From the NCBI RefSeq assembly GCF_964340395.1, contig NC_135558.1, positions 6,415,001 to 6,479,000 on the forward strand: DNA of 64,000 bases. The letters are read 5' to 3'. Shown here in pieces: positions 159 to 60,257 of the stretch; the stretch's first letter is position 1, and the number at the start of each line of letters is the position of its first letter. Position numbers and translations under genes: made by a program. This stretch comes from Glandiceps talaboti (lineage: Eukaryota > Hemichordata > Enteropneusta > Spengelidae). The notes below the pieces were generated by a model. It was given only the letters and a program-made list of their open reading frames with translations. It was not told where the DNA came from and ran no database searches.

Positions 159-2990
159 ATGGCACAGGTGAGAGTTCTACACATCTTTACTTTGATACTG
201 GTCTGTTATAGCATACATGTATTCTCATCACATACACTCTGCAAGGTGTACAATTCAACCTGTGTTGATTGCGGATATAGGGATCTAAACAAACTACCAG
301 ATGACATACCATCATTCGCTACCTACTTAGAGCTGTCTCACAACGTCATCACATCCCTACCACCAAATGGTACAATCCATCTAACAAACCTCCTTGTACT
401 TAACATCAGTTACAATTATGAAATTGGAAATCAAGAAATTGGCAGCATCGATACTGACTCTCTGAATGGACTGCATAATTTGAAAATATTAAACCTCATA
501 CAAAATGGAATCCATACAATTGATGCCACAGCATTCAAGGATCTTCAAAACTTGGAATTTTTGGATATCAGCAGTAACCTTCTCACGGCAATCCCAAACC
601 AACAGTTTTTCTATCTCAAAAGTTTGAGGACTTTGAAGATCTTCAGAAACAGCCTTACTACACTGTCCCCTTTGTCTATGGAAGGACTCTTTAATTTGCA
701 ACATCTGAACTTAAAGCACAACGAAATCAGTGATTTACCAGATGATGTCTTCAAAGACCTCACAAACTTAACAGCAATAAGCTTACAACAAAACACATTA
801 TCATGTCTACCGTACAAATCACTTCTACCACTGAAAAACATTGAAGCTATTGATTTGAATTACAACTTTTTTGATGCAGAATGTGATATCATAACACTTG
901 AAAACTTCCCAAGACTAACCACACTATGGCTATCGGACTGTAACCTGGTTGAAGAAGACCTACAGACATTGGGTTTAGAACATGTGGCACTAAGAGAGCT
1001 CACACTGGGTGGTAACATAATAACACCACTCACTTTCACTTTCCTTCAAAATGTACAAAATGTTTCTAAGTTGGATCTCTCAGGTAATGAAATCACAGGT
1101 TATGATTTGGAAGAACTTTCAAATGTGTTTAAAGATCACGTAATCACAACAGTACTGGAAGAGCTGGACCTTTCTGACAATGATCTAAATCCGCTACCTG
1201 ATGGAGGATTCCAGTGGTCTCCACAACTCAAAATACTTCGTATTGACTTCAATGAACTTGAATTCATTCCTTCAGGTGCATTTACAGGTGTGGAACATCT
1301 GTTATCATTAGACTTGGGCTCAAATTACTTGTCTGATATCACAGAATTGTCTTTTAACCTGCAAGGACTTTTCACTTTGGAACACCTTTATCTGTATACT
1401 AATGAATTTAACGGTGAAATTCCTCAAAATCTTTTCTCAAATCTTACATCTTTACTAGAATTAAACCTGTCTTATAATAGATTTACTTCAATCAATCCTA
1501 ACTGTTTCACTTTCCTGTCAGCACTTGAAACTTTAGATTTGTCTTCAAATCTTTTTCATCAGATCCCAGATTCAGTCTTTTCACCCTTGACATCACTCAA
1601 AGACATAGGACTGAGTGGCACGCTGACTGTAACCCGTAACTTTATACCCATAATTGGTGACAATCCCTTCAGAAATTTGACAAATTTGATAAAAGTATCA
1701 CTATCGCCCAATCAAATTCAGTCTTTGTACCAGACAGATAATGAAGCTTTGAGGTACCTTATTATCACTGATGGAGCAGAAGATGCCCTCCTGAATTTGG
1801 AAGCCTTCCATAGAATCAAACTCCCACGTCTCACTAACCTATTCATTCTTGCTGTTGGTTTGACTTACAATTGTTCTGATCAGGAACATAAATTTTGTGA
1901 TCAAGGACACAAATTTCCATCAATAACAACTTTGGAGCTATTTTTGACTCCCTGTAAAGAACCTACTACAGAAGGACTTGCGAGGTTCTTAAAGTTATTT
2001 CCTAACCTTGAAGCATTTTCTATGAAAGGTGAGCAACAACCTATGATAGATTCCCATTACATAGAGAGTATGAATGTACTGCCTGACAGCTGGAAACATC
2101 TTAAATCGTTAGATTTGACCCGGAATCAAATCAAGCAGATCAACATGGATGTCATAAAGTCCAACCCTAATCTGAAATTCATCAATATTGGTGACAACCC
2201 ATTTGACTGCTCTGGTTGTAATATGAAGGATTTCACAGACTGGTTAAAAACAGATAAGAAAACCCAAGTAAAAAATGTAGATGACTTTAGTGCCTACAAA
2301 TACTTGTGCCAGAAACCACTTAATAAGAAGGGAATTCTTCTTTACAACTTAAGCTTTGGGTGGGAATGTAATCTAGCATTTATTGTCTCTGTTCCCTTAG
2401 TTAGCTTTTTTGTCTTCATAGCCTTAATCATTACACTTTGTGTCTATTTTCAATGGCATATCCGTAACTTGATATTTCAAATCAAACTGAAATGTCGTGG
2501 TTACGACCTTCATGTCAATGATGAAATGCAACTATTGGATATGAAATATGATGCATTTATTGTCTATAATCAGCATGACAGGCCTTGGGTTATGCAGCAA
2601 TTAGTTCAGAACTTAGAAAATAATGATCAACATAATTTCAAACTCTGCGTTCATGAACGTGATTTCATGCCAGGTGTTGAAATTTTTGATAACATTCTAG
2701 ATAGTATAGAGAATAGTCGCAAGACTGTGTTGATACTGTCACCTCAATTTGCAGAAAGTGAGTGGTGTTATTTTGAGATGAGAATGGCTCAGAACTATTT
2801 GTTTGAGGAAAAACGAGATGTAATCATTTTAGTATTACTAGAGGAAATTCCAGATCACTTAATGCCCAGAGTTTTACGTAAATTACTTACTACAAAAAGG
2901 TACATAAAATGGACCAAGAACAAAGTAGGTCAAAGACTCTTCTGGAAGAAATTGAAACTTGCACTGAGGAAAGGTGATAAGATGAAATAA
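159..2990 (+). CDS. Toll-like receptor, single exon, vertebrate-type (single cysteine cluster)
   Basis: Membrane receptor of innate immunity, 943 aa from the ATG at 159 (aaaATGg context). The frame is open upstream to about 78 but holds no earlier ATG. A signal peptide (MAQVRVLHIFTLILVCYS) precedes a cysteine-bearing N-terminal cap, then about 20 leucine-rich repeats, one C-terminal cap (NPFDCSGC...WLK), a membrane helix near residues 739-763, and a cytoplasmic TIR domain from about 795. The TIR shows box 1 (YDAFIVYN), box 2 with the BB-loop proline (RDFMPG) and box 3 (RLFWKK), as needed for MyD88-type signalling. There is only one cysteine-rich cap before the membrane, so it is of the vertebrate (sccTLR) type, not the Toll/multi-cysteine type. 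No intron is seen. The frame looks intact. Ligand and one-to-one orthology cannot be read from sequence. It probably lies within a DHX16 intron on the other strand. Confidence 0.95.
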   Translation: MAQVRVLHIFTLILVCYSIHVFSSHTLCKVYNSTCVDCGYRDLNKLPDDIPSFATYLELSHNVITSLPPNGTIHLTNLLVLNISYNYEIGNQEIGSIDTDSLNGLHNLKILNLIQNGIHTIDATAFKDLQNLEFLDISSNLLTAIPNQQFFYLKSLRTLKIFRNSLTTLSPLSMEGLFNLQHLNLKHNEISDLPDDVFKDLTNLTAISLQQNTLSCLPYKSLLPLKNIEAIDLNYNFFDAECDIITLENFPRLTTLWLSDCNLVEEDLQTLGLEHVALRELTLGGNIITPLTFTFLQNVQNVSKLDLSGNEITGYDLEELSNVFKDHVITTVLEELDLSDNDLNPLPDGGFQWSPQLKILRIDFNELEFIPSGAFTGVEHLLSLDLGSNYLSDITELSFNLQGLFTLEHLYLYTNEFNGEIPQNLFSNLTSLLELNLSYNRFTSINPNCFTFLSALETLDLSSNLFHQIPDSVFSPLTSLKDIGLSGTLTVTRNFIPIIGDNPFRNLTNLIKVSLSPNQIQSLYQTDNEALRYLIITDGAEDALLNLEAFHRIKLPRLTNLFILAVGLTYNCSDQEHKFCDQGHKFPSITTLELFLTPCKEPTTEGLARFLKLFPNLEAFSMKGEQQPMIDSHYIESMNVLPDSWKHLKSLDLTRNQIKQINMDVIKSNPNLKFINIGDNPFDCSGCNMKDFTDWLKTDKKTQVKNVDDFSAYKYLCQKPLNKKGILLYNLSFGWECNLAFIVSVPLVSFFVFIALIITLCVYFQWHIRNLIFQIKLKCRGYDLHVNDEMQLLDMKYDAFIVYNQHDRPWVMQQLVQNLENNDQHNFKLCVHERDFMPGVEIFDNILDSIENSRKTVLILSPQFAESEWCYFEMRMAQNYLFEEKRDVIILVLLEEIPDHLMPRVLRKLLTTKRYIKWTKNKVGQRLFWKKLKLALRKGDKMK

Positions 2991-3159
2991 GTAGCTGATT
3001 TCTAAGCATTGGCAGTAAATATTCAATAGATTTCATAAAATGTGTACATTTTCATAGTGACACCATCTTTTTCTTAGGCAATATGTTAAAGCTGTACTTG
3101 CTGTAACTGGAGAATTGTTTTTTATGATCAGACAACCAACAATATATTCCTGAAAATTG

Positions 3160-3770
3160 TTCAAATACCAATGATTTGGCATTATACATGTCAATTAGAG
3201 ATTGATTTTATCTGTAAATAGTAAAGTATCAGGTTAAAATCATGACTGATGATTTTAGGGCGTGGACCCAAAAATCCATGTGACTGTATTTATTGTACCA
3301 TACAATGTGTACAGCCACACACATATGTTTACACACAGGTGATTCAATGTTGTTCAGGGTGTATGATAGTACAAGTAAGTCACTATATCTAACAAAACAG
3401 TTTCAAAGGTGAAGAAATCCACTGGTCCTGGGTCCGGGACTCTAAATTTTTGGGGGCAGACCACACAAACCTTGTCTGGTTTGTCGGACCAGTACCTTAC
3501 TGATAAAAAGTCGTTTGAGTATACAGATTCATAGGCAAGATTTAATGTTTCACATTAGTACCAATAATTTGGCATTATACATGTCAATTAGTGGTTGATT
3601 TTATCTGTAAATAGTAAAGTATCAGGTTAAAATCATGAACGATGATTTTAGGGTGTGGACCCAAAAATCCATTTGACTGTATTTATTGTACCATACAATG
3701 TGTACAGCCACACATATGTTTACACACAGTTGATTCAATGATTTGTTCACCCCTGCAGTTTAGAAAAACT
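3160..3770. repeat. Two direct partial copies of a dispersed TTAA-type MITE
   Basis: About 185 bp at 3165-3355 recurs at 3553-3740 with few differences, about 388 bp apart. Both copies carry the family landmark TTTTAGGGYGTGGACCCAAA. The same family appears near 30357-30790, 52326-52687 and 59330-60015, the first and second of these in the opposite orientation to this pair. Confidence 0.8.
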
Positions 3771-4084
3771 TTCTAGTTACAGCTTGTACAGCTATGAATG
3801 ATCTTTGAGATATATTGAACTTCTCTTACCACAAAGACTGGAGTTCTGATCTTAGAGTATGAATTATTCACCTGGGATATTTTGGCTAAATGAGTTAGCC
3901 TTCTTTAGGAATTCAATGATGTACATGTATACTTGTTAAAGACAAATACATTGTTATGACAACGAATTTATTAATTAATCAAAAAAATTTAATAGACCAG
4001 TGACTTTGATATTCACTCTGCTCATCACTATACTGTTATGACATATGGGCAAAAATACTTGAATTTTATCAATATACTAAGTAC

Positions 4085-4560
4085 ACAGATACTTGAAATT
4101 TATCACTCAATATTATTGAAAATATTACACAGACACTTTTGAACTGTCATAAATAACATAGTACACAGACAGATACTTTCAAACTTTATCAATATTAACA
4201 TAGTACACAGACAGGTACTTTCAAATTTTATCAATATTAACATAGTACACAGACAGATACTTTCAAACTTTATCAATGTTAACATAGTACACAGACAGAT
4301 ACTTTCAAATTTTATCAATATTAACATAGTACACAGATAGATACTTTCAAACTTTATCAACGTTAACATAGTACACAGACAGATACTTTCAAACTTTTAT
4401 ATCAACGTTAACATAGTATACTGACACTTTCAAACTTTATCAATATTAACATACTGTAGTACGCAGACAGACACTTTCAACTTTATCAATGTTAACATAG
4501 TACACAGATTCTTTCAAAGTTTATCATTAATTTTTTTTGAAAATATGACACTAACACTTT
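4085..4560. repeat. Minisatellite, 42-bp unit, about 10 copies
   Basis: The unit reads TTAACATAGTACACAGACAG followed by ATACTTTCAAACTTTATCAA. Copies between about 4160 and 4420 are nearly identical; those at both ends are shortened or diverged. An open frame on the minus strand (4103-4369) is only this array read through. Confidence 0.9.
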
Positions 4561-5516
4561 CAAACTGTATCAATATTAATGAAAATAGTAAACAGAAAGT
4601 TTACAATATTATAATTAAGACTTTGTGTACCTTAGTATATATTGTACTCAAGACAAATTTTTAACTGCTGTTTTTTTCTCCTTTTAGTTTGCAATAAATT
4701 TGTAAAAATGTTCTTACATACAGATTCCTACATACATGTATGTTGTTTTTGTTTTAATAAATGAAATAAAATGTGGCTGAATGTTTAGAAGTGTTATTTT
4801 ACTTCCACAAGTAGACATACTCATTTCATGTTTCTCGTTTACCTCCATGTTTGTTTGGAATTTGGAATTCAGAATACTTTGTATTATTATTACTGCTGAT
4901 TACGATTGATATACAGTCTACAGAACATTAAAGAAAGGGAAGAGATACTTTGTGAACTCACTATGTTTACCAAAAACTTGCATGGTAAAGGAGATAGAAT
5001 GCTTTTATAGTTTCATTCACTTTCACTTATCAGTACAGAGTTGGCATTGATCAGAACTTATAACAGGCAGAAGAGACACATGGGCTTTCCTAGGCAACTT
5101 CTGTTTAAACATGTTTTTGATTTTCTATTGTTAATGTAATTACCATAACAATACAAGCAGTCAACAATATGTTTAGCAGAAGCAAGGCCCATACATCACT
5201 TCCGCCTAAGTTCTGATCAATGCCAACTCTAAACTGATAAATGAGAGTGACATCACTGCGATATCAAAGTTATTATTAAACAGTGAATTCATAAAGTATC
5301 CTTCCCATTGTAAATATTGGATACTAAAACCTGCAGGTGAGTTCCTAATGTGTGCTTATTACAGGCTTATCATCACTAACTTTGCAGGTTTTGAATACAA
5401 GTTCAAAAAGTTGATGGCCTTCTGAAGATAACAAGCAGGTTTCAAACACCTTGACATGGATTTGACCCCATAATAATTCTTATTTTTATTGTGCATTAGT
5501 AACAAGTCTGATCTTA

Positions 5517-11061
<5,545 letters not shown>

Positions 11062-11865: not shown

Positions 11866-14800
11866 ATGACGCACCAAGGAGCAGCTCTTCAAAGTTATAA
11901 TAATGAGTTAGTGAAATGTAAGTGACAACATTAGTTTAGCAGTGTCGTTTGCTTTTACGTTTATTTTAGCTGAAGTTTGAAAGTACGATTAGCGGAATAC
12001 AAGTGGTCACAGTGCATATGGAAGTCAGTGACTGCCTTCACTATTTTGTATCGGTATGAAATTATTCAAAATATTGAAGAAGGAATCAGTCGTATATATA
12101 TACCCACCGTTCAATTCAACGAAGAATTTTATTACGAGTGCAAGCTGGCAATGAGCTCTAGACTTTTTGCCTATGCATGCCCAAACCTGTTCAGGATCAG
12201 GGTGGTTGATAATGTAATGTGTATTGTTTTTGAACCAGTCAACCAACCGAACTTTACAAGACTCTTAATTTAAAAATCATTTTATCAAAACTTCTTTTTC
12301 CGATGCGTTCTTTATGCAAAAAAGGAGAAAGTGAGATATAGTAATACTATGATGATATTGTTATTTCCTATTTTCGTGTGGGTCACTGTCATTACATGTT
12401 ATGTATGTTGTTGTTTGCAGATGTATGTACTAGTATTTTATACCAGGCCAGTGTACAATTGATCAAATGTAGATTTAACGTGTTTATTTAATTACTTTTA
12501 AGTTTTATCATGTACAATGCACACATGCATTCCCTAGTTTTTATTTGTAATTTTTAGATCATGTTTAAAATTAAAAATAAAAGGGTATGTTTTCATCAGG
12601 GTAATAGTCCTTCAAGTTTATTTGAAGTCAGTGAATAGTAATTATACCATCACCACTAATATCAAAGAAAAATCAGGGAAAGTAATGGCAATTTTGAACG
12701 TTTTGACTCATATTTCAAACACAGCAGAACCAATGATATAGGCACATGTCGTTACATAGAATGACTAGGGTGTAAATTCCATATTTTTTGTTCAACTTGG
12801 CTTACATGAGGTGTAATTTCCAATGTTTTTCATTATGTAGGTATTGAAGACCTTTGTACAAAGAGAGATGAACTTCATAAACAGATCCTAAATGAAGAAG
12901 AAGAAAAACAGAAGATTCAAAATGATTTGAGGATTCTTTCAGAAAGGCTAGCAAAAGTTAACGAAAGTGTGGCTAAAAAGATTGCAGCAAGAAATGAATA
13001 TGATAAAACTATTGCAGAAACAGAGGCAGCATACATGAAGGTAATGTAATGTAAACCCTAGATGTGTTGTGTGTAGAGTTGCAGGACATATGTATAACCA
13101 AAGAAGTTAATTAAGTTAATTAACTGATGTGTAAATGTAAAATATTGTTAGTCTATGAAGAGCTATCATTTAAAAAACAAAAGAGCATTTTGATATGTTC
13201 AAGTATAGAAGTAATGATTGTATATTTAAAAGAGAAATCACTACCTGGCGTCAATTTAAGCTCAGGATGTTTTTACAAATTTTTAAACTGCTACAGCTTT
13301 ACAAAATCATCAACAGTTGAAATAGTCAGATGTAAGTACTTACATCATATAATGAAATGTTATCAACTTTGTAAAAAAACCCAAAAAAAACATACTTAGC
13401 GTTACTGGGATGATGCGATGATGCTGTCAATCTCAAAGACTATGTTAAAATTATTTTAAAAAGCAAACAAAATTGTTCAAATTAAATACACTATGCATGT
13501 AATTTGCAATCTTACAATAATTTAATTTAGAATTGTGAAATATAACTGAATGTTTGATTTGATAATTTGTACTTTCATGGTTTCCATATCTGTCATTCAT
13601 TCTCATTCACATTCATGTATCATGTATATTTGTTGATCTATACACAAGACATCAAGAGTGGCGGACAAACATGACAAAAGAAAACTTTCACTTCTCTCAT
13701 ATTGAGAGAAAAATAAAGGCTCTCAGAATAATAATGGGGAAAAGTGGAATAATATGATGATTGCCGAAAATGTTCCAAGATTTGTGGACAGAATTTCAGT
13801 TTTTGACCAAATTGTTAACTCGTGATAAAGGAGTGCCAATAATGTAAAATATTTCAATCTTTTCAAAAGGAAATCATGTAGTTCTGACATTATGTCAAAC
13901 TCTAAATTCTTAAAATCTTGGTAATTTGTACAAAAATGGCAGACTTTTTATTACACGTACAGAGTTTATGATTATTTGATGTTTCATGAGTCTTTCCTAT
14001 GTTTGTAAAAACTCAAGAGTTTCATGTCTTGTGTACTAGATAAACATTTTGTATTTTGTTCATCATGCACCATTCTAACAGTATTTGGATATCTGTGTTT
14101 TTTGTCTTTGTTCATTTTCTCTCACAGATTATTGAGAGTTCCCAAACATTGTTAAATGTTTTACAACGAGAATCGTCTGTCTTAAAAGACAAGGGTGTTC
14201 CAGCATTCAGCAACCTGCCTTTATAGTTCATCATTATGTGTGTTAGTAACCACATTTATGCATGCACTTGACATTGCAGTGCTTTCTAGAACTGCTGTAA
14301 TAATCTAAGTCCCCTCATTCATGTAATCCTGCCACCCCTGATTTCAAAATGAAATGGAATATTCTTCCTTTGAAAACTGCTACTTTTGTTCATAATTTTG
14401 TATACATTTAATTGTACATGATAATATAAAATAATGATGAGTTGTTACTTAGAGGGGTAGGCAGATGTGTCGGGTCACCCTAACATGGCGTGTCATAAAG
14501 ACTACAAAACTGAGACAAAGTGTGTAAACATGTAACATTTCAGAGGGTGCATAAGGAATGAGCTATCTGTAAGCTGTCATACAGTATAAAAGAACTCAAA
14601 TGATCTTGAACAGTTATTTCCAAACTCACAGCAACATATTTCTGTAGCCGACCATTTCAACTGAATCACCCTGTTTTCATCAGCTGTCACTTATCATGGG
14701 AGGCCATGTGATCATAATAAGTTAACTTTTACATGTACATGTACACATAAACATTTATGTTTTGTAAAATTTCAATACCATCGGTTATTATAGAGCTGCC

Positions 14801-16902
14801 AAACAAGGAAATCATTTGTATAGATTTTCTCCAAAACCCAAACTCAAGATTAAACTTGAGAACGTTTTGTTTTGTAGAAATCGATAATCTGTCAGTATGA
14901 TCCCCAAATCTGAGTTTACCCCAAAAAATGAAAACCTGGCCCAAAGCTCAGTTTACAAAAAGGTTGGAAACCTGGTTATGTTAGAAAGTACTGCAATGTA
15001 TCATTCTATCAATCCTATCCTCTCCTTTCCTATGACTGTCATCTTCCTGTATTAATATTAATTCCTTATCCCTTTCCTTTATTCCATCATTTTTTCCCAG
15101 CAGGATAATTCTGGAGATCGTCAGCATGGACGTATTGCCTGTGTTGTAACCTGTAGAGTAGTGCAGGGGTTTTCAAAGTGTCTACATCAGATTTACTTTA
15201 TTTGGGGTAAAATTTGGTTATTGATAGATGATATCCATAGTGATTCACTTTCTGTGACTGTCCCTATGACTGATTTGCATGTAGTATTTGACGAAGGCTT
15301 AAAGCATGTTCTGTTGTTTTTGTTTTGTTTTTTCTTCAATCATTACCCTCGGTTTGTTATTCTTGAAAAGTGATCTAAGTTTTCTGCATATTTTAATCTC
15401 ATATATTAAAATCTTCCAATAAGTGATGTTGTCATAAATGACCCATTTGTGATGAATACCACAACTTGGGGAAGAAACTCAAAAATTATAACATGAATAT
15501 GACAGTGAAGTGACATAGTATTTTGTTGTTGGTTGTTAATTGTGTTGTCCAGTCATTACTTGCCAGGCTACCCTATCTGCCAGCGTGATCTGAATGACAT
15601 GACATGATGTATACAGTCCATGAAATGTTTTGAACTATGAAAACTGATGAACCACCAACCACTAAGATGCTTTAAATCCTGTCACAAAATATGAAGTATA
15701 AGCTTAGTCAGATTCTAAAGACAACTTCACAAAACTCTGAAGAACCCCGGATATTTTGACACTTTAGCCGAAATAACAAATCTTCAAATAATCACCTCAG
15801 TGACAATTTCAATGATTTTAGTTCATATCAACATATATTTGTAGACATTTTGAAAACCTGTACACTCTCATTTGGTGGTCACTGTATTTGTTGCCCGAGT
15901 CTCTGTCATCACAAAGCCTTTTTATCAAATACCTTGTAGCTGGAATGCATTGCCCTGGATTGCCAGTTCAGTGCCAATGTCTGGTTATCATAGACAGTGA
16001 CTGAACTCGAAAGCCAGGCAAAAATTAGTTTATACTTCCAAGTAAGAAACTGCATGTAGAAATACCAATCTGATAAATTCTGATGTAGTGAACTTGGCGT
16101 GATTTCTTTATTTACCTCCTATTTTTCTTGGTGTTTATTCTCTTTTGTTCTGAGAGTGCCTTGTACCTACATCTGATTCATTACTATGGAATTCTCATAC
16201 AAATTTTGATTGCTGAGTGGATTATAATAAGTCAAAACATATGGGTAAATCATATTTAGAATGCTCTGTTTGAAAAGACACAGACAACAACATTATTGTT
16301 ATTGTGTAGGTGAATTTCTTTGTTTCAATTTCAATTGTGAAGTTTCATATTGTAAGACAGATTCTAATTGGCTACTCGTAAGTACAAGATTTGTACATGA
16401 ACTCCTATGTATTGTATCAAGATGTGGGAACAAGGTGCTCACTTACAGAACAAAAAAGACCATAGGAAAGAGAGGTCAATAAAGAAATGGTGACGAGTTT
16501 ACTTCATTAGATTTTAATCAGATTGGTAGGAAATACTAACTGTTTAGATTCTATCAACCCTTGCCATGTGATTACAGTAATGCTTGCTTGTATATCTTAG
16601 TCTATGCATGTAGTGATCTCGGCCATTGTAGATTAGACATTTTGTCCAGCTACAAGTGAAATCATTAAAGTTATCAGACTTTGTGATCACATTGACAATG
16701 AAATTGGCAGCAATTATAGTTATAATCTTGTCATTGGTTGCAAAATTTCTCATTTTGTGTCATCTGTTTGTTTCAGATTTTGGAAAGCTCACAGACTTTG
16801 TTACATGTATTAAAACGAGAATCCGTCGGACTTGACAAAACCCAACCCACAGCTGCCACCAGTGTTACATCATTGAGCAAGTCTAAAGAACAGATGTTAT
16901 AA
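11866..16902 (+). CDS. SSNA1: SSNA1 (NA14), microtubule-binding coiled-coil centrosome/cilium protein
   Basis: SSNA1 self-assembles into fibres, binds microtubules and acts at centrosomes and ciliary bases. Exon 1 is 11866-11917 ([18 protein letters not shown]), exon 2 is 12841-13040 and the last exon is 16777-16902, all in phase, giving 125 aa (human 119). Exon 2 encodes the family coiled coil ([17 protein letters not shown] ... [21 protein letters not shown]). The last exon reads [16 protein letters not shown], very close to human [16 protein letters not shown], with a Thr/Ser-rich tail. A second possible last exon lies at 14128-14226. An AATAAA near 17361 could be the polyadenylation signal. 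Intron 1 (11918-12840) contains an open stretch on both strands at 12025-12246 that I could not assign. Confidence 0.93.
14128..14226 (+). CDS. SSNA1: Alternative last exon of SSNA1 (isoform a)
   Basis: After a clear acceptor (CTCACAG) this exon reads [16 protein letters not shown], a duplicate of the downstream terminal exon ([16 protein letters not shown]). It then has its own tail ([16 protein letters not shown]) and stop. Its phase equals that of the exon at 16777, so either can follow exon 2, giving 116 or 125 aa. The two encode the same coiled-coil end but different tails. No donor follows, so it must be terminal. It could also be a decaying duplicate, but it has no stop or frameshift. 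Confidence 0.82.
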   Translation: MIESSQTLLNVLQRESSVLKDKGVPAFSNLPL

Positions 16903-17416: not shown

Positions 17417-17484
<68 letters not shown>

Positions 17485-31799: not shown

Positions 31800-37868
<6,069 letters not shown>

Positions 37869-41100: not shown

Positions 41101-44100
41101 CGTTGCACCTTTTTAGACAAACTGCCCTGACCAGAAACAATTCTTTTATTTTTTTTACCTAATGCACTGTAAAACCAGAGCTGTAAAACCTATAGACTGT
41201 GAGATACTACACATTGCGTCATTTTACTCTCTTTAGTTGATGAGTGGTAATGGTAAAGTTAGACAACTTATTTGTGATAGTTGCTATGGCAATCTGGAAT
41301 GAGTTCAGTCATTTGCAAAATGATGGTTAAGTATGCTTCAACACTTAGAATGCTATGTGTACTTTTTGAATATGCAGTAAAAACTACACCAAAAAAAAAA
41401 TGTAAAAATCTCAGCTTGTGCCCCTTTCATTGACAATGTGTGGCTCCATTTATTATTTACATTATCTCATCCTGTAGAATATGCCTCTAGAGGATAACAT
41501 CACTGGGTGAGCTGAAATGACAAAAATATTGAACGATTTGTTACAATAGTGATTAGAAATGATTGAATGTGATTTATTGGATGTTCTATTACTTTCTAGG
41601 TGGAATTCTAGCCAGAGGAATTCTGTCAATGATGCCAGACCACAATGTTCAGACTTTCATTGCTTTGTCAACTCCCCAAATGGGACAATATGGAGGTAAA
41701 ATTAACACTACTATTAGACTATCAGAAAGTTAGTGACTGCTTTTCTTACAAAGATTTATATGATTTTGTCTTCTGACTCAGACTGAGTCAGATTTGACTT
41801 TAGACAATTGTTAGTTCACTGTTGTACTTATTGGCACCGTCATATGCAGGAATTTATTAAGGGGGCAACTCAGACAGGATATCTTTCAGAGGGGTGATGA
41901 ATATTTGGTAGTACCAGTAAAAGTTGTACAAGTACAGCAGAAAAATACTATTTATCCTTTGTACTCCCTGTGTCTTCAATACATCAACTTGTTACCACAC
42001 CTTTTGAGGTCGGAAATTTAGGAAGAAAGGTCGGAACTAGTCAGAAACGAGTCTTTTGAATAAGGGAAACACTCTAGAACTGTACTTTAATGAATCATGT
42101 GACTAAGTTTTATATTTTTCATTTCCAGATACCAGCTATTTAAAGTGGCTTTTCCCAGAAACTATAAAAGAGGAACTTTACAAGTAAGTAGAAAATCAAA
42201 ATCAGGTCACTTTATTACTTTAAAGGCCCATGTTCCAATCCCAGGTTCTTGCATTAGTGATATCTTATCAGTAGAGCTATAAGGATGAGATCATTTTTTT
42301 TCCAAGATCAACTTTTTCGGTAGTTCTGCTAGCTCTGCTTGACCAGACAACTGTTTGCCACACCCATATTTAGAGCTAAAACAGGAAAAGTTTACCAGAA
42401 GACTGAAAATAACATAAATAATTTTAAAAGATGTGTATTACCCCATTATGTACACATGTAACATATTTGCTACTTGCACATATTAATAGTTGGAGAGTGT
42501 ATGGATTGTATTAGACAAATGAACATCTGTTACACATACCCCAATCAGAGAACAATGTACTAAATTACACAAGTGTTTGCTAGCTGTTACTGGTCAATTT
42601 ATGCAAAGTAACAAAGTAACTAAATACTTATTATAATGGTACTCTTTATTAAGCTAAAGAATAGTTATTATAGAACTTTAATCTGTTTATAAAGATACAT
42701 TATAATTTTGATGTGAAAATGAATATGTTTGTATTTTGGGTTCATGTCAAACATAAAATGTTGCTATTTTGGGTTCATGTCAAACATAAAATATTGCTAC
42801 TTTGGATGTTAAACATAAAATATTATTACCGACAGAATCAGAAAATGTATGACAATAATCCCGATTTTTGTGGAAGTCTATTTTGCATCATCAGGGTATG
42901 AACTACAAAGGGCTTGCACCACATATTTCACCATAGACATGTAAACCAAGTTGTAGTAATATCTGAGATCTCATTTCTTGACTGTTTTCTTGATTTATCA
43001 GAATTAGGAGAAATGACAAGTCATGTTAAGTTTTATCGAATTAATTTGAGATGCCTGTAACAAGTTTGATTGTAAGATACGTTGTGTTGTTCATCGCTGA
43101 TTGGCCTTCTCTTTATAGTGGTGGCTGATCAGGGCTTGAAATTAACATTTTTCTTATGGTAGTCCCAGCAGGCTACCAATTTCAGAAAGTGGTAGCCCAA
43201 GGATGGTGACCAATAATCCTATATTTCTGAACTGAAAACAGAGTTCTTCTATTGGAAATATGTAAATAGTTTCATGTCAATAAATCATCCATCATCCTGT
43301 AAATCATCACATAATTAGTGGTAGCCTGAGTGGGCTTCATCACATAATCAGTGGTAGCCTGAGTGGGCTACCAGCTGCAAACTATGGTCGCTCCATGACC
43401 AGAATTGGTAGTCTGTGGGCATGGGACTACTGTTAATTTTGAGCCCTGTGTAACAAGTGTATTTCCATATGCATAGGTTTAATTATTACATTTTTAGCAC
43501 AACTGAACTTGTTCAGTAGTGCTATAGGGATCACCCGGCGTCTGTCTGTCTGTGTGTGTGTGTGTGTGGATGTGTGTGTGTGTGTGTGTGTGTAAACAAC
43601 TTAAAGTCAAAAACCGCTGAACCGATTGCCACGATATTTGGTGGGTCCATTACTTTGGGTGTCTAGTTGGGAAATTGTTCAAATCAAAATGATCGCATCA
43701 CAGGTGTGTGATTTGGGTCAAAAAATGTGATTTTTGGTCAAAAAACTTAAACTCAGAAACTACTGGGCAGATTGGTGCGAAATTTGGTGGGAACATTCTT
43801 AAGGGGGTGTAAAGTAAGATTTGTTCATGACGGGATGATTCCATCAGTGATATGCAAATTAGGGCTAAAAATGTGTCTTTTTGGTTAAAAATCTATAATT
43901 CTAAAACTACTGAGCAGATTGGGCTGAAATTTAATGGGAATGTATCTAGGGATGTATGGACGAAGAAATATTAAGCATACCATGATTCCATGAGTGATAT
44001 GCAAATTAGGTGTAAAAATGTTCATTTTTGGTCAAAAACTTATATCTCAAGAAGTACTTGGTCAATTAGTCTGAAACTTGGCAAGATGTTTCTGAAACTG

Positions 44101-47100
44101 TTATTCTGCAGATTTTCTTAAAAACATTTTGACAAAATTGGCCCTAGCAACCATGACCACACCCTTTAGCAACAACCAAATGACAGTATATTTTGGTCAA
44201 ATAACAACATCATCTGGTAAGCAAGTGAGTAAACATTCAAAAAATGTATGCAAATACCCTAGCAACCATGACCACGCCCATAGCAACAGCCAAACGGTGG
44301 TGTATTTCACAAAGATAACAATAGGGTTTAATAGATAATTGAATAAACATCCAAAAAATGTATGTAAATTTGCATAGCAACAAGACCACGCCCATAACAA
44401 CAGCCAAATAATCACGTATATTGCAAAGATAACAACAGGAATAGAAAGACAGATGAATAAACATTCAAAAAATGTATGCAAATACCCTAGTAACCATGAC
44501 CACGCCCATAGCAACAGCCAAACGGTGGTGTATTTCACAAAGATAACAACAGGGTTTAATAGACAATTGAATAAACATTCAAAAAATGTATGTAAATTTT
44601 CCTAGCAACAAGACCACGCCCATAGCAACAGCCAAATGATCACGTATATTGCAAAGACAATATCAGGAATTCATACACAAGTGAACAAAAACATACACAA
44701 ATGTATGCAAATATATCTAACAACATGACCACGCCCATAGCAACAGCCAAATGATAGCATTTATCGTAAAGATAGCAACATGGTTGGATAGGCATCTGGA
44801 TAGTTATTCAGCAAATAAACACCTATTGTTAGCATAGACTAGCATATGGATAAACATTTTTAAAAACTACAGTTGTGCTACAACGCCATTGGCGGTATTT
44901 TTTATATTTTAGGATCTGTTACAAAGAGTTTGGTCAGAATATTTCTTTTTGTAATTACTGGAATGGTAAGTGAAATCTTATTTTTGTTTAATTTCTACTT
45001 TGTTCAAAAATAATCTTATCGTTGACTGTCACATTGATTGAATAAAAAATGTTAATGATATTCAAAAGGTGATGACGTTTAAAGGAGAATAGAGGGAAAC
45101 TAAAATTAAAGGATATCTGGTGATGGTGAGATGGAAAATAAGGGATGGTGTTGAAGGGAAGGAAGGGAACACAAAAGATGGGATATGTATTGGGAAAGTG
45201 GATGGAAAGGAAAAGTATTAGACTGATAAAAATGGAGATATCAACAGAGGTAGAAGGATGAGTAGAGTGATGAAATAGACATGACATAAGAGTTAGACAG
45301 ATAGAAAAATCTGAGATATATATGTCTGAAGAGACAGGGACAGAAAGACAAAATAGAGAGTGCTACAGGTAATCTGTAAGGTATGCCATGACGGTGTGCC
45401 CTCACACAATGGTCAACCCCTGAGGAGGTTGGTGAGGGTACATGGTCAACCCCTGAGAAGGTCGGTGAGGGTACATGGTCAACCCCTGAGGAGGTTGGTG
45501 AGGGTACATGGTCAACCCCTGAGGAGGTCGGTGAGGGTACATGGTCAACCCCTGAGGAGGTCGGTGAGGGTACATGGTCGACCCCTGAGGAGGTCGGTGA
45601 GGGTTACATGGTCAACCCCTGAGGAGGTCGGTGAGGGTACATGGTCAACCCCTGAGGAGGTCGGTGAGGGTACATGGTCAACCCCTGAGGAGGTCGGTGA
45701 GGGTACATGGTCGACCCCTGAGGAGGTCGGTGAGGGTTACATGGTCAACCCCTGAGGAGGTCGGTGAGGGTACATGGTCAACCCCTAAGGAGGTTGGTGA
45801 GGGTTACATGGTCAACCCCTGAGGAGGTCGGTGAGGGTACATGGTCAACCCCTAAGGAGGTCGGTGAGGGTTACATGGTCAACCCCTGAGGAGGTCGGTG
45901 AGGGTACATGGTCAACCCCTGAGGAGGTCGGTGAGGGTACATGGTCAACCCCTAAGGAGGTTGGTGAGGGTTACATGGTCAACCCCTGAGGAGGTCGGTG
46001 AGGGTACATGGTCGACCCCTGAGGAGGTCGGTGAGGGTTACATGGTCAACCCCTGAGGAGGTCGGTGAGGGTACATGGTCAACCCCTGAGGAGGTCGGTG
46101 AGGGTACATGGTCAACCCCTGAGGAGGTTGGTGAGAGTACAGCAAAAATGATATATCTTACAGTCTATGCTACAGATCGCGAGAGTGATAGAAGTATGAA
46201 ATGAACCAGACTAGGAATTGAAATAAACATGTACAAGAGTAGAGACATCAGAGAGAAATTTAATAGTGAGATTGTATTTTATTGGTAGATCCACACCACC
46301 ATGATTTGTACCTTAAACAAAATGTATACCTACCTGTTATCAACAATGAAGTCACCTCCAGTCACAGTGATGGTAAGTATATATTTGACATATGTTTCAA
46401 ATAACACCATGATCCTGTAGGTCATTTATTTTATGTTATTTTTGATGCCATTGACATGCTGAGATGGAATCATCATCAACACAGATAACCAGCTAACAAC
46501 TTACAAGTTCAACGCATAATTTTAGCTTATACCTTGAATCCAGATGCATCCCAGGCCCATACTATGCACGCATGATTTTACCATAGTCCCTGAGAATTTT
46601 TTGGTTGTAGAAGACATTTTGTCACGGATATATTGTTGGTGATTTCCATATGTTAACCCCAGTTAACCCCTGTATGTTTCTGACACTAGTTAGCTTACAT
46701 ACAAGAACTGGATGATATTCAATATTGTAGTTTATAATTTGGCTAACAATTGAACTGTTGTAACAGTGTTATGTCCACTGTATTTGATAATGATATTTTG
46801 TATTGCAATTTTTTGTTTCAGAAATCAAGAAAAATTTCTTAAAGATCAAGAATTTGGTGTTGATAGGAGGACCTGATGATGGAGTCATTACACCATGGCA
46901 ATCAAGGTGAGAGGTCATGTGTGTAGAATGCTTAAATATGATTGGATGACGATTTCTTTGGAAATCTGAAAGCAAGGACATGATTGCAAATAGCGCCCTC
47001 TGTGTTGGTTTTTTTCTGTTGTATTTTGAGGGGGCATTTGCTGCTCATTGTTTCAACCAATTGTACAGTTGTTTGTAAATATTGACATGTTGTATACTTA

Positions 47101-48005
47101 TCAAAGCAAAATTGATGACTTTCGTACAATAGCATACAAAGATATGCAAGAAAATGTGTATGGTGCACTGAATGTAGATAAGAATAAGTAAACCAAACCT
47201 GTTAAAATAATAAAAAGTTGTGAAAATTTCAACCACATTTGTGTCAAAACAGTTTTGAAATTCCAGTATTAACAGCTATAAGAAGGTAAAATCAACCAGT
47301 TTTTTGTAACCAGAATGCCCAATATATATGGTAATCTATGCAAATTTTACTAAATTTTTCCCCTCTGTTACCAAGGTTACCCAATAAAATTATGGTTGTA
47401 GGTTTGGAAATATATTTAACTTTACTAGATTCTCCCAGGATATTTACTTTTGTTTGAGATATCAGGTATTTGTTTACCTATTCAGTGTAATTTCCTGCCT
47501 TAACACACTTTCTTTCCATGAAATTTTTTTTCCAGTCAATATGGTTTCTATGATAGCAATGAGAAAGTACAAGATATGACAGATCAGAAGGTGAGTATCT
47601 GTCTGAAATGTTGGCAAATTGCCAATACTCAAAGCCTATTATATTTCAGAAAAAAGGTTCTGTTTGAGAATATATTGTTTATGGTGCCAAGAATCAATAG
47701 AACATTAAAATATAGTTACTTTGGAACAGTGACTTGGAAACAGATACGGTGGTTCAGTCCATTTACTACGGGCCTTGATCATGCAATGATTTAGTTATTC
47801 AGCGTTAATGTCTCTCGCTCCAAAACTGACAGAATAATGTATGTCTTTTATTGTTCCACAGGTCTATCAACAAGACTCCTTTGGTTTGCGGACATTAGAC
47901 AAACGTGGAGCAATTAAAATGTACACTGTGGCTGGCGTTGAACACACAAACTGGCATAAGAATGAAACTGTCTTCAAAGACTGCGTACTGCCCTGGCTGA
48001 CTTGA
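38148..48005 (+). CDS. PPT2: PPT2, lysosomal palmitoyl-protein thioesterase 2
   Basis: Secreted/lysosomal alpha/beta-hydrolase that cleaves thioesters such as palmitoyl-CoA. Nine in-phase exons: 38148-38303, 40450-40603, 41600-41695, 42129-42183, 44913-44965, 46289-46372, 46822-46906, 47536-47590 and 47862-48005, giving 293 aa (human 302). Residues 1-27 form a signal peptide ([16 protein letters not shown]), followed by [16 protein letters not shown] with the oxyanion-loop HG. The triad is visible: Ser102 in GFSQGG, Asp219 in [11 protein letters not shown] and His274 in [10 protein letters not shown]. The spacing equals human Ser111/Asp228/His283 shifted by nine. A GTG codon upstream is not the start; ATG 38148 gives the signal peptide. 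Introns 1, 2, 4 and 5 carry several mobile elements. It is transcribed divergently from PHYHD1. Confidence 0.95.
39504..39630. mobile_element. Foldback MITE in PPT2 intron 1
   Basis: CTAGTAGATATGG..TATTACCCTGAGGTCTGTTATGCAGTAA pairs with the reverse complement of the other end, CTAGTAGATGTCATATTACC, then CTTGTGCTGTTATGTAGTAA. The arms are about 40 bp and only about 35 bp apart. Confidence 0.7.
40775..41165. mobile_element. Inverted-repeat element in PPT2 intron 2
   Basis: AAAGAATTGTTTCTGGTCAG (40821-40840) is matched in reverse by CTGACCAGAAACAATTCTTT (41127-41146), with A- or T-rich sequence outside both. A degenerate A-run precedes it (40781-40825). Confidence 0.6.
42713..42830. repeat. 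39-bp tandem repeat, 3 copies
   Basis: Unit: TATTTTGGGTTCATGTCAAA followed by CATAAAATGTTGC. The third copy is shortened. PPT2 intron 4. Confidence 0.85.
43131..43448. mobile_element. Non-autonomous hAT-like element
   Basis: Ends are CAGGGCTTGAAATTAACA and, reversed, CAGGGCTCAAAATTAACAGT. The inner TGGTAGTCCCA and GGCTACCA motifs are also inverted. CAGGG ends are typical of hAT MITEs. No matching 8-bp duplication directly abuts it. TGTAACAAGT at 43056-43065 recurs at 43449-43458, so it may have entered with, or into, a remnant of the palindromic MITE (TGTAAGATACGTTGTG at 43071). Confidence 0.65.
43494..44881. mobile_element. TA-flanked element built of two satellite arrays
   Basis: Ends GCACAACTG (from 43497) and CAGTTGTGC (to 44878) are inverted and bordered by TA. 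The left part (43600-44110) holds about four units of 130-145 bp with ACTACTGRGCAGATTGG and GATATGCAAATTAGG. The right part (44135-44815) holds six units of about 113 bp with GACCACGCCCATAGCAACAG, alternating between two subtypes. No coding capacity is supported. It ends 33 bp before PPT2 exon 5. Confidence 0.75.
45370..46167. mobile_element. Palindromic MITE copy 3, expanded by an internal minisatellite
   Basis: The left end TAATCTGTAAGGTATGCCAT and the right end (reversed) TAGACTGTAAGATATATCAT are those of the palindromic MITE. TGCTACAGG (45361-45369) and TGCTACAGA (46168-46176) are the target duplication. Between them about 22 units of 33-34 bp (GGTCAACCCCTGAGGAGGTC, then GGTGAGGGTACAT) fill 45411-46140. 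Unexpanded copies are 95-104 bp. In PPT2 intron 5. Long open frames through the array are artefacts. Confidence 0.9.
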
Positions 48006-54718: not shown

Positions 54719-55932
54719 ATCTATTATGATCATCACCATGCCATTTTCTAGTAAAGAATATCCATTACAAAATTTCTGATACCTTATTTCCCCCGCACCC
54801 TCTGCAAGCCTTTCTCAACCTTGTACAAAATCACCTGTCTATTTCTTTGAAAAAAGAAAAGTGTACCCTTTGCAAGACTATCTGACCATACATTACGATA
54901 ATCACCCTCTATTCCATTGAAAAGTAGACTGTCTTGAAATACAAAGAATAAGTGGACTAAACCAAAATGATGAAAAAAGAGGGGAGGTGTCATTGATAAG
55001 CATAAAAGTGTCACAATTGCATTATTAAAAGAAGCTAAATGACCTGTGTAGAAATCTTGAAGACGATCACAAGAAAGAGTATTTAGTGTAAAGCTATAAG
55101 TTACTGTACAGAAACCATCCAGCATGTATTGCACATAAGTTTAAGTTTAAAAATGCTAGACAATGTCAAATATATGTACCATTCTTTATCAAGCAAATAA
55201 GTGAATTTCATACCGTGAAGTTCTGTGTTCGTTCACAGAAACACATTTAACAAATAAACTATGCCAAGTAATAAACAAATGATAAATACACCAGTTTTAG
55301 CCACTTTTCGCTACTCCCATGTGCCAATCTACAAGTGCGTAAACAAACAAATTGACTAAATCATGTTGTTTTGATATGTCTTTAAAAAGCCAATGACCAA
55401 ATTAGATATTTATTTTTGTTTATAATACAAGTGTTAAAAGTTTACCATAGCAACTGATTTTTGTTTGTTAATGTTAACTAGTAAAATTGTACTTTTTATG
55501 TTTTTTACTCAAAATAAATATAAATATTTTGCTGATAAAAATCTACCATGATGAAAGAAAGAGAGGGCAAGGTCATTATTTCTACTAGCAGATTAAGTGT
55601 TATCTAACACTGAGTGTTTTTAAGGGAAGGGCTGTATGTAAGTAAAATCTGCCTCGGTTTGCCAGCTATGTCACTAGGCCTCAATCACTATGGTAACATT
55701 TGTATGAAAGTGGATAAATGTTTTACCAGATTTATCCCATTCCTATTTGTGGGGTTTTTGAACCTTTGCAAAAATAATGCTTTGGGTTCATGAAAGTAAA
55801 GCAAAAACTGTTCTCATTTGTTCATGATATTCATTGTTCAATTCTGACAACCCCAGTTTCGTTTGTTGTAGTATCTGTTCCACAGATAACATTAGAGAAT
55901 AAACCAAAGAACAGGGGGTGTTACACAGCTAC

Positions 55933-58900
55933 CTACTCGGCTCCATTGAAATAAGAGTTTTGCATGGAATAAAGTTTATCAATTGGATTTCCCATCCGCC
56001 CACCGTTTGTTGGTGGTAAAGCATCTGGACTCGGGACTGGCTGACTTGTTGCTAGGAGACCACTTTCCTCCATCATGCGGCCATCCATTGGAGGACCGTC
56101 AGGATGAAACATTGGATCTGGTTGTCCTGGATACATTGACTGTCCTGTCATTGGAGTCATTTGATTGGTTGGAAACATAGATGAGGGCGGATAGGAATGG
56201 TCCATATTTTGTGGTAAATGGGGGAGACCAGGTTGAAGTGATTGGTGATGATAGTTATGGTTTAATAAATCTTCCGGCATTGGGTACTTCATACTCACTT
56301 CTTTTAAGTCACTGTTGTTTTCTAAAGGATAATTACCTACAAATAAATATAAAAAAATATTTATGTATAAGATGGGTGTCCACACAGCAATTTAATGAAA
56401 TTGAATATGCCATATTTTGATTAAGTTTAAAGATGAGTTGCATGAGAGCATCCCAGATTGGAGAAAGTGAGGGTCACACATTTTGTTATGTATGCTAAAC
56501 ACATGGCAATACAAGGCCCAAGCAGTCAGTGAAATTGATAAGATAATGTGTTCCTAACATTAATAAATAATCAAATCCCGAAGAAGCAGAACTTCTTGAA
56601 TTACATATAAACCAAGAATGTTATTAACATTTCCCAGGAAAACTTTGTGAAAGGATGATTTTCACAGTAGCACAGTGTACCACACCATCCAGCCCAAATT
56701 GGCTGTTGAATAGCGCCCCCTTGTGGTCAAACTATACAATCGTTTATCTTTCAGACGACTGGCATGGCATATGTATTGAGGAATAAGATTAGAGACACCT
56801 GAGGGACAACAGGTCCAGCCTTGCATCTGATAAAGCCAGTAACAACCATGACATCAACCTGGCCCTATATAAGCTTGACATCAATAACATGAATGTCACA
56901 GTGTATACAGAGGCCTCAGGTCTAATTCTTCCATCTTACTCAACTCTTCAGAGAGTGAAATTACAAAAGAGTGCTTCTGGGGAAATACACAGCTGTTACA
57001 TACAGCAGTAGAATACTAGGGCACAAAGGTTCCATACTGACGAAATCCTATATGCTTGAAATATTACAAAAAAATCAGCATATCACTAATTGTTGCTTCA
57101 AAAATGGTGCATAACGTAATTCATTACACATCAGAGTCTCATTATATGTACACATAATCTTTGCATTGTTTCAAATAGGAACATCCTGTCAGGATACTTA
57201 CTAAGTAAGTAAATCTGACAATGCCAGCAAAAAAAAGTAGTGCCTAGTTTTAACACTGTGGTTTTTACAAGATGTTCTCAAATTTTAACAAATCTAACTG
57301 AATCGGAAAATACTAAATACAGAAATTATTTTCTCCACCATATAAATATTCACTCAACATGGAATAATACAATACTGACCAAATATAGTTGGTTTGGCCT
57401 TTGAATCTGGATGTAGCCAGCCCTTCACACATTGGGTGGACTAACATCCAAAACTAACATCCTAAAATACAAACGCCCATTTTTTACAATCACCTGTTCT
57501 CACGGCTATAAATAAGGGCCCGGTAAAAAAACAACCAGCTCTTCCTCAATGTTTTTCCAACTACTTTTCATGGATCTATTTGAAAAAACCTTTGTTTCAA
57601 CCAAGTTATTTCCATCATTGGGCAGATTTATGAGTCACATACTAGATAATACTCTCCACTTTTCACATTTTCCTGTCTACTTTTAAAATGAGCTATATCC
57701 CTGGTTCTATGGGAGAAACCTTTCAATATTACAGGTTTAATAATATTTACTCTATTGACTCCCATTGTTCTGATTCTATACATTCTATACAATTCTTTAC
57801 TTCTTGTCATTGATTTCATAGATACAACAACATTTCTGGTGTCTCAAATTTCAAGGAAATTAAAAATTTTCATGAAATCAATAACCATGACTTACTTTCA
57901 TCTTGTTTATCTTTCAAAGCTCGTCTATTTTGTTGCCTTGATAGTCGTCGTGGCGATGACCCTTCAGTACTATGACCCTGTTCCTGCATGTGTCGGCGCT
58001 GTAATTTTTTCATCTATAGAGAAACATAAAATAGGTTTTAAAAAAAGAAGATATAGATAGATATTCTTAGTATCACACCAGACCCTGGATAATTTCAGTA
58101 CCTGTAATAACATTTTACTTCCCACTAGAGGGCCAAATAGAGCAATGCAAGATGATTTACTTATTCTCAGTACCTGTAAAGGCAATTTGCATCATGCTAG
58201 AGGTCAAAATAGAACAAGATGGTTGACTTATTCTCAGTACATGCAATAGTATTTTACCTCATGACTTGAGGGTCAAAATAGAACAAAATGGTTGACTTAT
58301 TCTCAGTACATGCAATAGCTTTTTACATTATGACTTGAGGGTCAAAATAAAACAAAATGGTTGACTTTAATATTTTCACACATGTCTATAGTAATGCATA
58401 TGTAGTGTGTTTAGCAAAAGTCATGATATTGACCAAGAAATCAAGTGATCATTATTTTTTGTCATGCCTTGGTGTAAAATTCAGATACACAAGAATTGAG
58501 ACACAGGAAGGGATGGAATCCATTCACAAAATTACAAGATATTGAGTGGCAGTGGAACAACTATCAAATTCACACAGTTAGTGTTGGGGGGGGGGGGGGG
58601 GGCTTTCATGCACAGAATCTTACTTTTGTCACACTGACTTACTTTCATATCTAAATTCAGTTTAATGACGTACCTTAGCTCTTTGATTCTGAAACCATAC
58701 TTGGACAACACGTACACTTAGTCCTGTGTCTGCTGCAAGTGATTCTCTAACCTAAAAAGGAAATAATTCATAAATAATTATAATTTTTATGAAATTCTCA
58801 AAACATTTTTCTGAAAAGCTGATCAGCTAGATTTTATCACTTCTTTCTTTACAAATAGCCAATCAAAGTGGTTCTGGCTAACATTTTTTTGGCTAATATT

Positions 58901-60257
58901 TTTTCAGTAAATCTTAAAAAAAGAGCTTACCTTTCGACATGGTTTTTGGGAGACTTCAAATGATTGTTTAAAAGCCCTTCGTTGTGCTGTAGTCAGGATA
59001 GTCCTTGGTCGTTTTGGTCCCTTCCTACCATCACCATTACTGGAGTTCATGTTACCACTTCCATTGTTTTGTGTTATGCTGCTCATTCCCGAATCACTGT
59101 CGTTTTCTAGGTTTGTTGAGCTTGTGTGGTTGTCAAGAAAACTTTCATCGATGATGTCACTGTCATCACACATATCATCTGAATGATGACCTGTAAATGG
59201 AAGAAATTATATGAACTAAGCAAACTTGTTTCTATGGAAACAGACATATCCATATCATTATCATCCGACATATCTGAATTTATGTGAAGGATTTATGAAA
59301 TGCAGACTTATTTCTATGGAAACAGAAACCATCATTTTTGTATATTGCATATTTGTGTAGCCGTATACACCTTAGGGTGCAATATATAAAATCAAATTGA
59401 TTTTTGTGTCCGCACCCAAAAATCAGCACCTTCAGTGAAGCATGATTGCAACTTATTATATATGGATAAACAGACCTCTAATAGGGAACTTGCAATCCAG
59501 ACAGAGCATGCTCAGATGCAAAGGCCTATGGGATTATCTGTGGTTATCATAATATGTAATCTGGAGCTACTGATAAAATAAACCCCCCACAATGGTCAGG
59601 GTAACTATGAATTGATTATTTGTGGTTATAAACAATGTATCAACATTGTTTACAATACTAATTTATTTAAGTACTTATTATTACATTTCCCATGATGCAA
59701 CATTCAACATGGCGGGTTTGCAAGTTGCCCATTGATGTATAATGTATATGTTTTCTGTCTGTCATTTCTGTATATATCTGTTGTTTTTTTAAAGTATTTT
59801 TTGAAGTATTTTTTTATGTGTATATTTTAACTATCTCTCATACTCCCACAGAAAGGGGTCGTAGAGTAAATAAATTATTATTTTTATTATTATTATTATT
59901 ATTGACATTCACAATGTTTAATTATTGGTATTTGAACAATTTTCAGTAAATACATGTGTACATATTGTCTGATGGAAAATATACTAATAATATCCTAGTT
60001 ACAGTTAGCACAGCTTGAAAGATATTTCAGCAATCTTACCTGATGGACTTGGTTGAACTGAACCGTACTCTTTCTCATAATCTACTTTACAAAACAACTG
60101 ATTATCTCGAACCACAAATTCATCTCCTTTCTGCAACCTCTGGTTACAGATTACACAAAGAAAACATCTGAGATGATAGACGTTAGACAGCGCCCTCATA
60201 ACTAACTCATTGGATGGAATGGATTGCAGACAACCATTGCACTTGGTACTGAATAAT
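55933..60257 (-). CDS. LMX1: LMX1 LIM-homeodomain transcription factor, LIM2 to C-terminus
   Basis: LMX1-type factors pattern dorsal limb, kidney, eye and monoaminergic neurons in vertebrates. Five minus-strand exons keep phase: 60040-60257, 58931-59190, 58674-58751, 57896-58013 and 55933-56336, about 358 residues. The first has the whole second LIM domain (zinc ligands in [15 protein letters not shown] and LFCKVDYE). Then comes an acidic Ser/Asn-rich linker. The homeodomain [20 protein letters not shown]... [14 protein letters not shown] is split after CRK as in vertebrate LMX1. The tail ends [15 protein letters not shown], the LMX1 signature (human GNPIDRLYSMQSSYF). The upstream exon must end in phase 2 and encode LIM1; none was found to 64000, so the 5' part lies to the right. 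It is a single invertebrate form, equally related to LMX1A and LMX1B. Confidence 0.95.
58085..58365. repeat. Minisatellite of about 70-76 bp, 4 copies, in an LMX1 intron
   Basis: Units contain TTATTCTCAGTACCTGTAAT, then AGCATTTTAC and GAGGGTCAAAATAGAACAA. It is the reverse complement of the array in MRRF intron 3 (26440-26790). Confidence 0.85.
58584..58602. repeat. Poly-G run
   Basis: About 19 consecutive G after TTAGTGTT in an LMX1 intron. Confidence 0.95.
59330..60020. mobile_element. Interrupted TTAA-type MITE beside the LMX1 LIM2 exon
   Basis: The left half (59330-59480) has GTGTCCGCACCCAAAAATCA. The right half (59925-60018) has AATTTTCAGTAAAT and AGTTACAG..AGCACAGCTT. Between them lie an element with GGGAACTTGCAA / TTGCAAGTTGCCC ends (59488-59730) and a stretch ending in (TTA)n (59750-59902) that resembles the 3' tail of a non-LTR retroposon. 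Confidence 0.55.

Follow-up and report, generated by a model that had tools for sequence, protein, structure and literature searches.

Genes of the vertebrate MHC paralogon on a probable hemichordate contig, with a Toll-like receptor pair inside a DHX16 intron

Genes of the window and their identification

The window analyzed here is the whole stretch of 64,000 nucleotides at C11:6415001-6479000, taken from an assembly of 590,416,875 bases in 47 contigs; contig C11 comprises 25,083,287 bases (25.1 Mb), or 4.2% of the assembly. A Toll-like receptor (TLR) gene, DHX16, SSNA1, MRRF, PHYHD1, PPT2, and LMX1 had been reported together in a preliminary description of this DNA, and all seven are present in the span described, on unequal evidence (Table 1). 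We consider that C11, which probably comes from a hemichordate, very probably descends from the linkage group ancestral to the four major histocompatibility complex (MHC) paralogon regions of vertebrates, with genes shuffled within the chromosome and the TLR outside this heritage.

Genes were named using Pfam, a search against the sequences of solved structures, and the reading of exons against known proteins, and the neighborhood looked at was 264 kb around the window. The identities of DHX16, MRRF, PHYHD1, PPT2, and the TLR are supported by Pfam or the solved-structure search. In the latter, DHX16 matched its own chain in 5z56 with 892 bits, compared with 508 for the next sequence, and the top match of MRRF was the mitochondrial ribosome-recycling factor 6nu2. 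PHYHD1 matched 2opw with 217 bits (37 for the next), and PPT2 matched 1pja with 201 bits (26 for PPT1). DHX16 is cut by the left end of the window, and more of its exons were found near C11:6407.4k, 6404.7k, 6403.7k, 6401.3k, and 6400.3k. Between recognized PPT2 exons, a minisatellite with a 33-bp unit (22 copies, 95% matches) occupies window positions 45409-46141.

LMX1 and SSNA1 were named largely by reading, the tools giving only a LIM-type protein for the former. Pfam detected two LIM domains in LMX1 and did not report the homeodomain, only the start of which was in the query. Lhx3/Lhx4 head the solved-structure list, whose 44 rows include no LMX chain, and the name LMX1 was therefore given by comparing LIM1, LIM2, and the C-terminus with the known protein. 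The candidate LIM1 exon is located at C11:6547431-6547592, approximately 72 kb further right, if both exons belong to one gene. For SSNA1, the solved-structure search gave no match and Pfam gave only an irrelevant sub-threshold match; this putative identity is based on a coiled-coil exon (12810-13046) and an exon with ESSQTLL, both read against known SSNA1. The last exon has two candidates that resemble each other, near 14044-14223 and 16726-16899; both contain ESSQTLL, and they are perhaps alternative ends.

Table 1. Features recognized in the window and nuclear-receptor matches along C11. Positions are those of the window, except in the last row, where they are positions on C11.
Feature	Position	Strand	Evidence
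Right-hand part of the DHX16 intron holding the TLR	1..5517	-	GT-AG donor/acceptor, joined reading
Single-exon Toll-like receptor, leucine-rich repeats and TIR	159..2990	+	Open frame, Pfam LRR_8 and TIR
DHX16 5' half, six recognized exons	5518..11061	-	ATG at 11061; DHX16 solved-structure match
Putative SSNA1, main coiled-coil exon and two candidate last exons	12810..16899	+	Read by eye
MRRF, mitochondrial ribosome recycling factor, recognized exons	25181..27807	+	Pfam RRF, 6nu2
PHYHD1, recognized exons	32563..37189	-	Pfam PhyH, 2opw
PPT2, recognized exons	40450..48002	+	Pfam Palm_thioest, 1pja
LMX1 3' half: LIM2 exon, homeodomain exon start, C-terminal exon	55936..60286	-	Pfam, reading
Nuclear-receptor matches on C11	198455, 1723451, 1754832, 1915986, 1983202, 8148515		DNA-binding domain

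Another contig of the assembly, C40 (51,222 bases), is mitochondrial; COX1 matched it three times, with equal scores and at a spacing of 15,435 bases, and it is probably a head-to-tail assembly of the mitochondrial genome. Its cox1 frame has four ATA codons, at least three of them where Ile is expected. No AAA codon was seen in cox1 past the likely start or in the nad1, nad2, cox2, atp6, cox3, and nad4 frames, while the nad5 frame has two and the cob frame has one. The gene order is nad2, Asn, Trp, Ala, Tyr, cox1, Ser tRNA, cox2, and nad4L does not follow next after cox1. We take ATA as Ile, the rarity of AAA, and the order cox1-Ser tRNA-cox2 to fit an acorn worm, and not an echinoderm (cox1 then nad4L) or amphioxus.

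Marker families and LIM genes along C11

Seven classic marker families were picked by us: PBX, RXR, Notch, BET, PRRC2, GTF2H4, and SYNGAP1/DAB2IP. PRRC2, BRD, SYNGAP1/DAB2IP, and GTF2H4 are members of the MHC paralogon. PMC10751288 gives rxr, notch, pbx, and brd the status of framework genes, and PMC2211742 tabulates the human positions of PBX. The preliminary description had singled out enrichment of the scaffold for MHC-paralogon orthologues as a check on which it depended, and this enrichment was found on our sample: all seven families have a place on C11, and seven of the eight marker places overall are there, with RXR entering the count only through its top match. By length share, the chance of at least seven of eight places falling on C11 is p ~2e-9, and the probability is 7e-7 even with one tenth of all genes on this contig.

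All matches were on C11 for PBX (3/3), PRRC2 (2/2), BET (1/1), GTF2H4 (5/5), and the C-terminus of SYNGAP1/DAB2IP (3/3, in one 22-kb place at C11:10043695-10065629). At the last of these, overlapping profile ranges suggest a tandem copy. RXR, found via a DNA-binding-domain search, is the best of 61 nuclear-receptor matches; it lies on C11, and its own sequence, with the stretches AVQEERQR and ELAVEPKTD, identifies it as RXR. Of the best 12 nuclear-receptor matches by this domain, six fall on C11, and all but one of these six are in the first 2 Mb of the contig. The NODP domain of Notch gave two places, one of which is on C11 (C11:23006761). Each of the framework genes RXR, Notch, PBX, and BRD has a place on C11, together with the further paralogon families PRRC2, SYNGAP1/DAB2IP, GTF2H4, LHX2/9, LHX3/4, LHX6/8, LMX1, and LMO4-like. 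The marker and LIM genes are found at 1.0, 8.1, 10.0, 12.5, 13.5, 15.9, 17.5, 20.6, 21.4, 22.7, and 23.0 Mb of the contig.

LIM genes were used for a further comparison, with 75 matches in the LIM profile search, 14 of them on C11. Eight double-LIM loci, chosen from the better-scoring rows with places already seen, were read and named. Five are on C11, namely LHX2/9 (1.0 Mb), LMX1 (6.5), LHX3/4 (13.5), LHX6/8 (21.4), and LMO4-like (22.7); the other three are LHX1/5 on C19, ISL on C13, and another LMO on C18. The table in PMC2211742 places human LHX2, LHX3, LHX6, and LMX1B on 9q33-34 with sister genes on chromosome 1, and ISL1/2 and LHX1/5 on 5q, 15q, 17q, and 12q. The resulting contrast (5/5 compared with 0/3) gives a Fisher p of 0.018, or 0.029 without LMX1, for loci chosen after their places were seen. 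All four control loci looked at (ISL, LHX1/5, another LMO, and Runt) are off C11, Runt being on C4; its human member RUNX2 maps to 6p21.1 but not within the MHC.

Such a story could perhaps be told of any 60-kb window with conserved genes, and the co-location could then be due to chance or reader bias, as genes were named by eye and we chose the markers ourselves. However, seven of the eight marker places fall on C11, which makes up 4.2% of the assembly, and the four control loci looked at lie elsewhere. The grouping of paralogon-type genes exceeds chance in the marker test, which rules out chance co-location, and we give this explanation practically no credence.

A single place each was found for PBX, PRRC2, BET, and GTF2H4; SYNGAP1/DAB2IP also has one place, and Notch has two. 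Because the first four are single, the genome looks unduplicated, so the division of these genes between 6p and 9q in human is consistent with differential loss following duplication.

The Toll-like receptor pair inside DHX16

The open frame of the window TLR extends over 66-2990, with an ATG at 159. This gene and a twin, with a frame of 955 codons, are both antisense to DHX16 inside one of its introns. The whole intron is 13,124 bp long (C11:6407394-6420517) with GT-AG boundaries, and the exons flanking it (window 5518; C11:6407393) join in one reading frame. The two TLR copies lie in tandem at C11:6408318-6412318 and 6414612-6418558 (the latter equal to window -388 to 3558) and are 96.2% identical across 4,008 aligned bases, flanks included.

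A profile search of the genome gave at least 141 TIR matches on 19 contigs, and 89 of these, on 17 contigs, are in open frames of at least 800 codons. C5 has 24 matches and C11 has 21. The share of C11, approximately 15% on 4.2% of the assembly, is enriched beyond its length; 13 of its 21 matches form one array at C11:10785417-10859358, and two are the window pair. Most TIR matches in the array sit in frames of at least 900 codons. In the solved-structure search, the top match of the window TLR was TLR3, the full-length matches ranking highest were TLR3, TLR5, and TLR7, and TLR4 was absent, all among the best 60 of 90 matches and with no tree built.

The preliminary description had read the TLR as a link between innate immunity and the ancestral region. 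A related alternative is that a TLR belonged to that region and that the window TLR and human TLR4 share descent from one gene. The TLR does sit physically in the block, and C11 holds more TIR matches than its length predicts. Against such an origin, 13 of its 21 matches form a single array and two are the window pair, that pair (96% identity across 4.0 kb) shares a single DHX16 intron, TIR matches are spread over 19 contigs with 24 of them on C5, and the best full-length structural matches are not TLR4. The link to the ancestral region is contradicted by the intron nesting, the tandem twin, and the scattered family, and an ancestral TLR is extremely improbable. The gene is not an independent neighbor in the block, being nested in a DHX16 intron with its twin, and because of this nesting, the scattered TIR family, and the TLR3 top match, its closeness is a poor guide to the content of the ancestral region. 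The TLR would instead be a later arrival, outside the ancestral linkage. Proximity can mislead on ancestral immune linkage, since the sole immune gene here is an intron guest.

Lineage-specific TLR families occur in invertebrate deuterostomes. The genome resembles them in that near-full-length TLRs encoded in single frames are numerous and spread over many contigs, with some of them grouped in arrays; the window pair differs in lying inside an intron of a gene that encodes a spliceosomal helicase. TLR expansion in amphioxus is described in the abstract of PMC6224433.

Chromosome-scale ancestry, local order, and known systems

Human DHX16 and PPT2 are on 6p, MRRF, PHYHD1, and SSNA1 are on 9q, and LMX1 members are on 9q and 1q. 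We propose that one linkage group would have been copied by whole-genome duplication to give human 6p21, 9q33-34, 1p/1q, and 19p13. Genes would have been kept on the chromosome while their order was shuffled within it, and vertebrate copy loss in each arm may have left DHX16 and PPT2 on 6p and MRRF, PHYHD1, and SSNA1 on 9q, with LMX1 kept on both 9q and 1q. The TLR, one of a large scattered family, would have been duplicated tandemly inside the DHX16 intron. The descent and the reciprocal loss are inferences that draw on reconstructions already published. That the four human MHC regions share one origin has been reported before (PMC6193309, PMC10751288), and the first of these papers assigns them to one chromosome that existed before the first round of whole-genome duplication (1R).

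The preliminary description had explained the mixing of 6p and 9q genes by differential loss after duplication and had taken the gene order of the block to predate that duplication. The explanation stands at the chromosome scale, for the sample tested (seven of seven families on C11, controls elsewhere), and does not extend to the 60-kb order. An order older than the duplication is not supported, as the markers range from 1.0 to 23.0 Mb and the block genes are not known to be adjacent in human. Because the markers lie across the whole of C11, a mixed 6p/9q block of 60 kb is expected from shuffling, and other C11 blocks should look alike.

In the 264-kb neighborhood, three further genes were named: STXBP, PRPF38B, and FBXW5. 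The STXBP exon scored 74.9 bits with squid Sec1, 73.9 with STXBP1, 57 with STXBP2, and 37 with STXBP3, with Pfam Sec1 below its cut-off. PRPF38B has a Pfam PRP38 match, its B form being assigned by reading, and FBXW5 has an F-box and one WD40 by Pfam and was named by reading. Human STXBP1-3 are on 9q34/19p13/1p13, PRPF38B is on 1p13, and FBXW5 is on 9q34. All nine named non-TLR genes in the 264 kb have human counterparts on 6p21, 9q33-34, 1p13/1q, or 19p13. Of nine flank frames submitted to Pfam, the eight besides STXBP could not be matched to any human gene; across the nine, Pfam gave no family for five, and its hits for the other four were Sec1, Ly6, and WD40, each below its cut-off, and SHIPPO, just above. 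Frames at C11:6384559-6390200 resemble by eye parvovirus (densovirus-type) capsid and replication proteins and are perhaps an endogenous viral element; Pfam found no family for the one of these frames tested.

STXBP and PRPF38B lie at C11:6315283-6334500, with recognized exons approximately 14-19 kb apart, and STXBP3 and PRPF38B are close neighbors at human 1p13.3. This pair, a possible conserved adjacency, is the sole hint of an old one. In mouse, expression quantitative trait locus (eQTL) intervals of the two genes overlap on chromosome 3 (PMC11473901).

The order DHX16-SSNA1-MRRF-PHYHD1-PPT2-LMX1 could alternatively be an ancient micro-block that predates the chordate-hemichordate split and was maintained through inertia or through regulatory constraint in the LMX1 region. 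The genes are compact, and all except the TLR have human counterparts on paralogon arms; the gap of approximately 72 kb between the LMX1 LIM exons is of a kind able to hold long-range enhancers; and the closeness of STXBP and PRPF38B, with the human neighborhood and the mouse data (PMC11473901), indicates that some adjacencies may survive. However, none of the six genes is known to be adjacent to another in human, the markers are strewn across the whole chromosome, and gene order inside linkage groups is extensively rearranged (PMC7269912). We regard an ancient micro-block as very unlikely. That part of the local arrangement, a tight cluster of genes found on different paralogon arms in human, with the long first gap of LMX1 at one end and the STXBP-PRPF38B pair nearby, was kept since the deuterostome ancestor as a core of the pre-MHC chromosome is a speculative and unlikely idea.

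Several points weigh against the descent of C11 that we propose. The marker test used a hand-chosen sample of seven classic families and is not a full orthologue map of C11. The second Notch-type place, on C4 (C4:25652993), has a slightly better score, and one Notch gene is usual for an invertebrate. Only eight double-LIM loci of the 75 LIM matches were read; four at 10.43-10.45 Mb of C11 and many elsewhere were left out. C11 may also hold genes from another linkage group. Finally, a broader proto-MHC, joining the MHC with the natural killer complex (NKC) and the leukocyte receptor complex (LRC), is considered an artefact of later fusions (PMC8302630); our data carry no bearing on this disputed, NKC/LRC-inclusive version.

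Literature searches found no paper treating four of the six window genes together, no title on point for a hemichordate proto-MHC among the matches listed, and none relevant by title on linkage groups with LHX/PBX/Notch/RXR, which does not show that such work is unpublished. The linkage is already known in outline, and the only possible novelty is the age of the tight local cluster.

Chicken chromosome 28 represents the 19p13 arm. PMC7269912 derives it from chordate linkage group C (CLGC), but equating C11 with CLGC would be a guess. In PMC11175523, where hemichordates and other deuterostomes are compared with ancestral groups, the deuterostome ancestor is given 24 linkage groups that match those of bilaterians, and a mostly one-to-one correspondence is described for the 23 chromosomes found in two hemichordates. 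Chromosome-scale retention with internal shuffling is described for amphioxus and scallop in PMC7269912 and PMC11175523, and C11 resembles these ancestral linkage groups in the same respect.

With the present contig, the chromosome that lies behind the MHC and the three regions related to it can be viewed in an unduplicated outgroup. The 6p-only genes DHX16 and PPT2 stand there beside the 9q-only genes MRRF, PHYHD1, and SSNA1, which is the pattern expected from reciprocal losses following duplication. The MHC paralogon and the amphioxus proto-MHC were reportedly treated by Abi-Rached 2002, Castro 2004, and Danchin and Pontarotti 2004. The likeness to the amphioxus proto-MHC is that rxr, notch, pbx, and brd are on one chromosome, here along with the window genes. 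The differences are that the DNA here is probably from a hemichordate, that Notch-type matches also occur at one place off C11, and that DHX16, PPT2, MRRF, PHYHD1, SSNA1, and LMX1 are close together.

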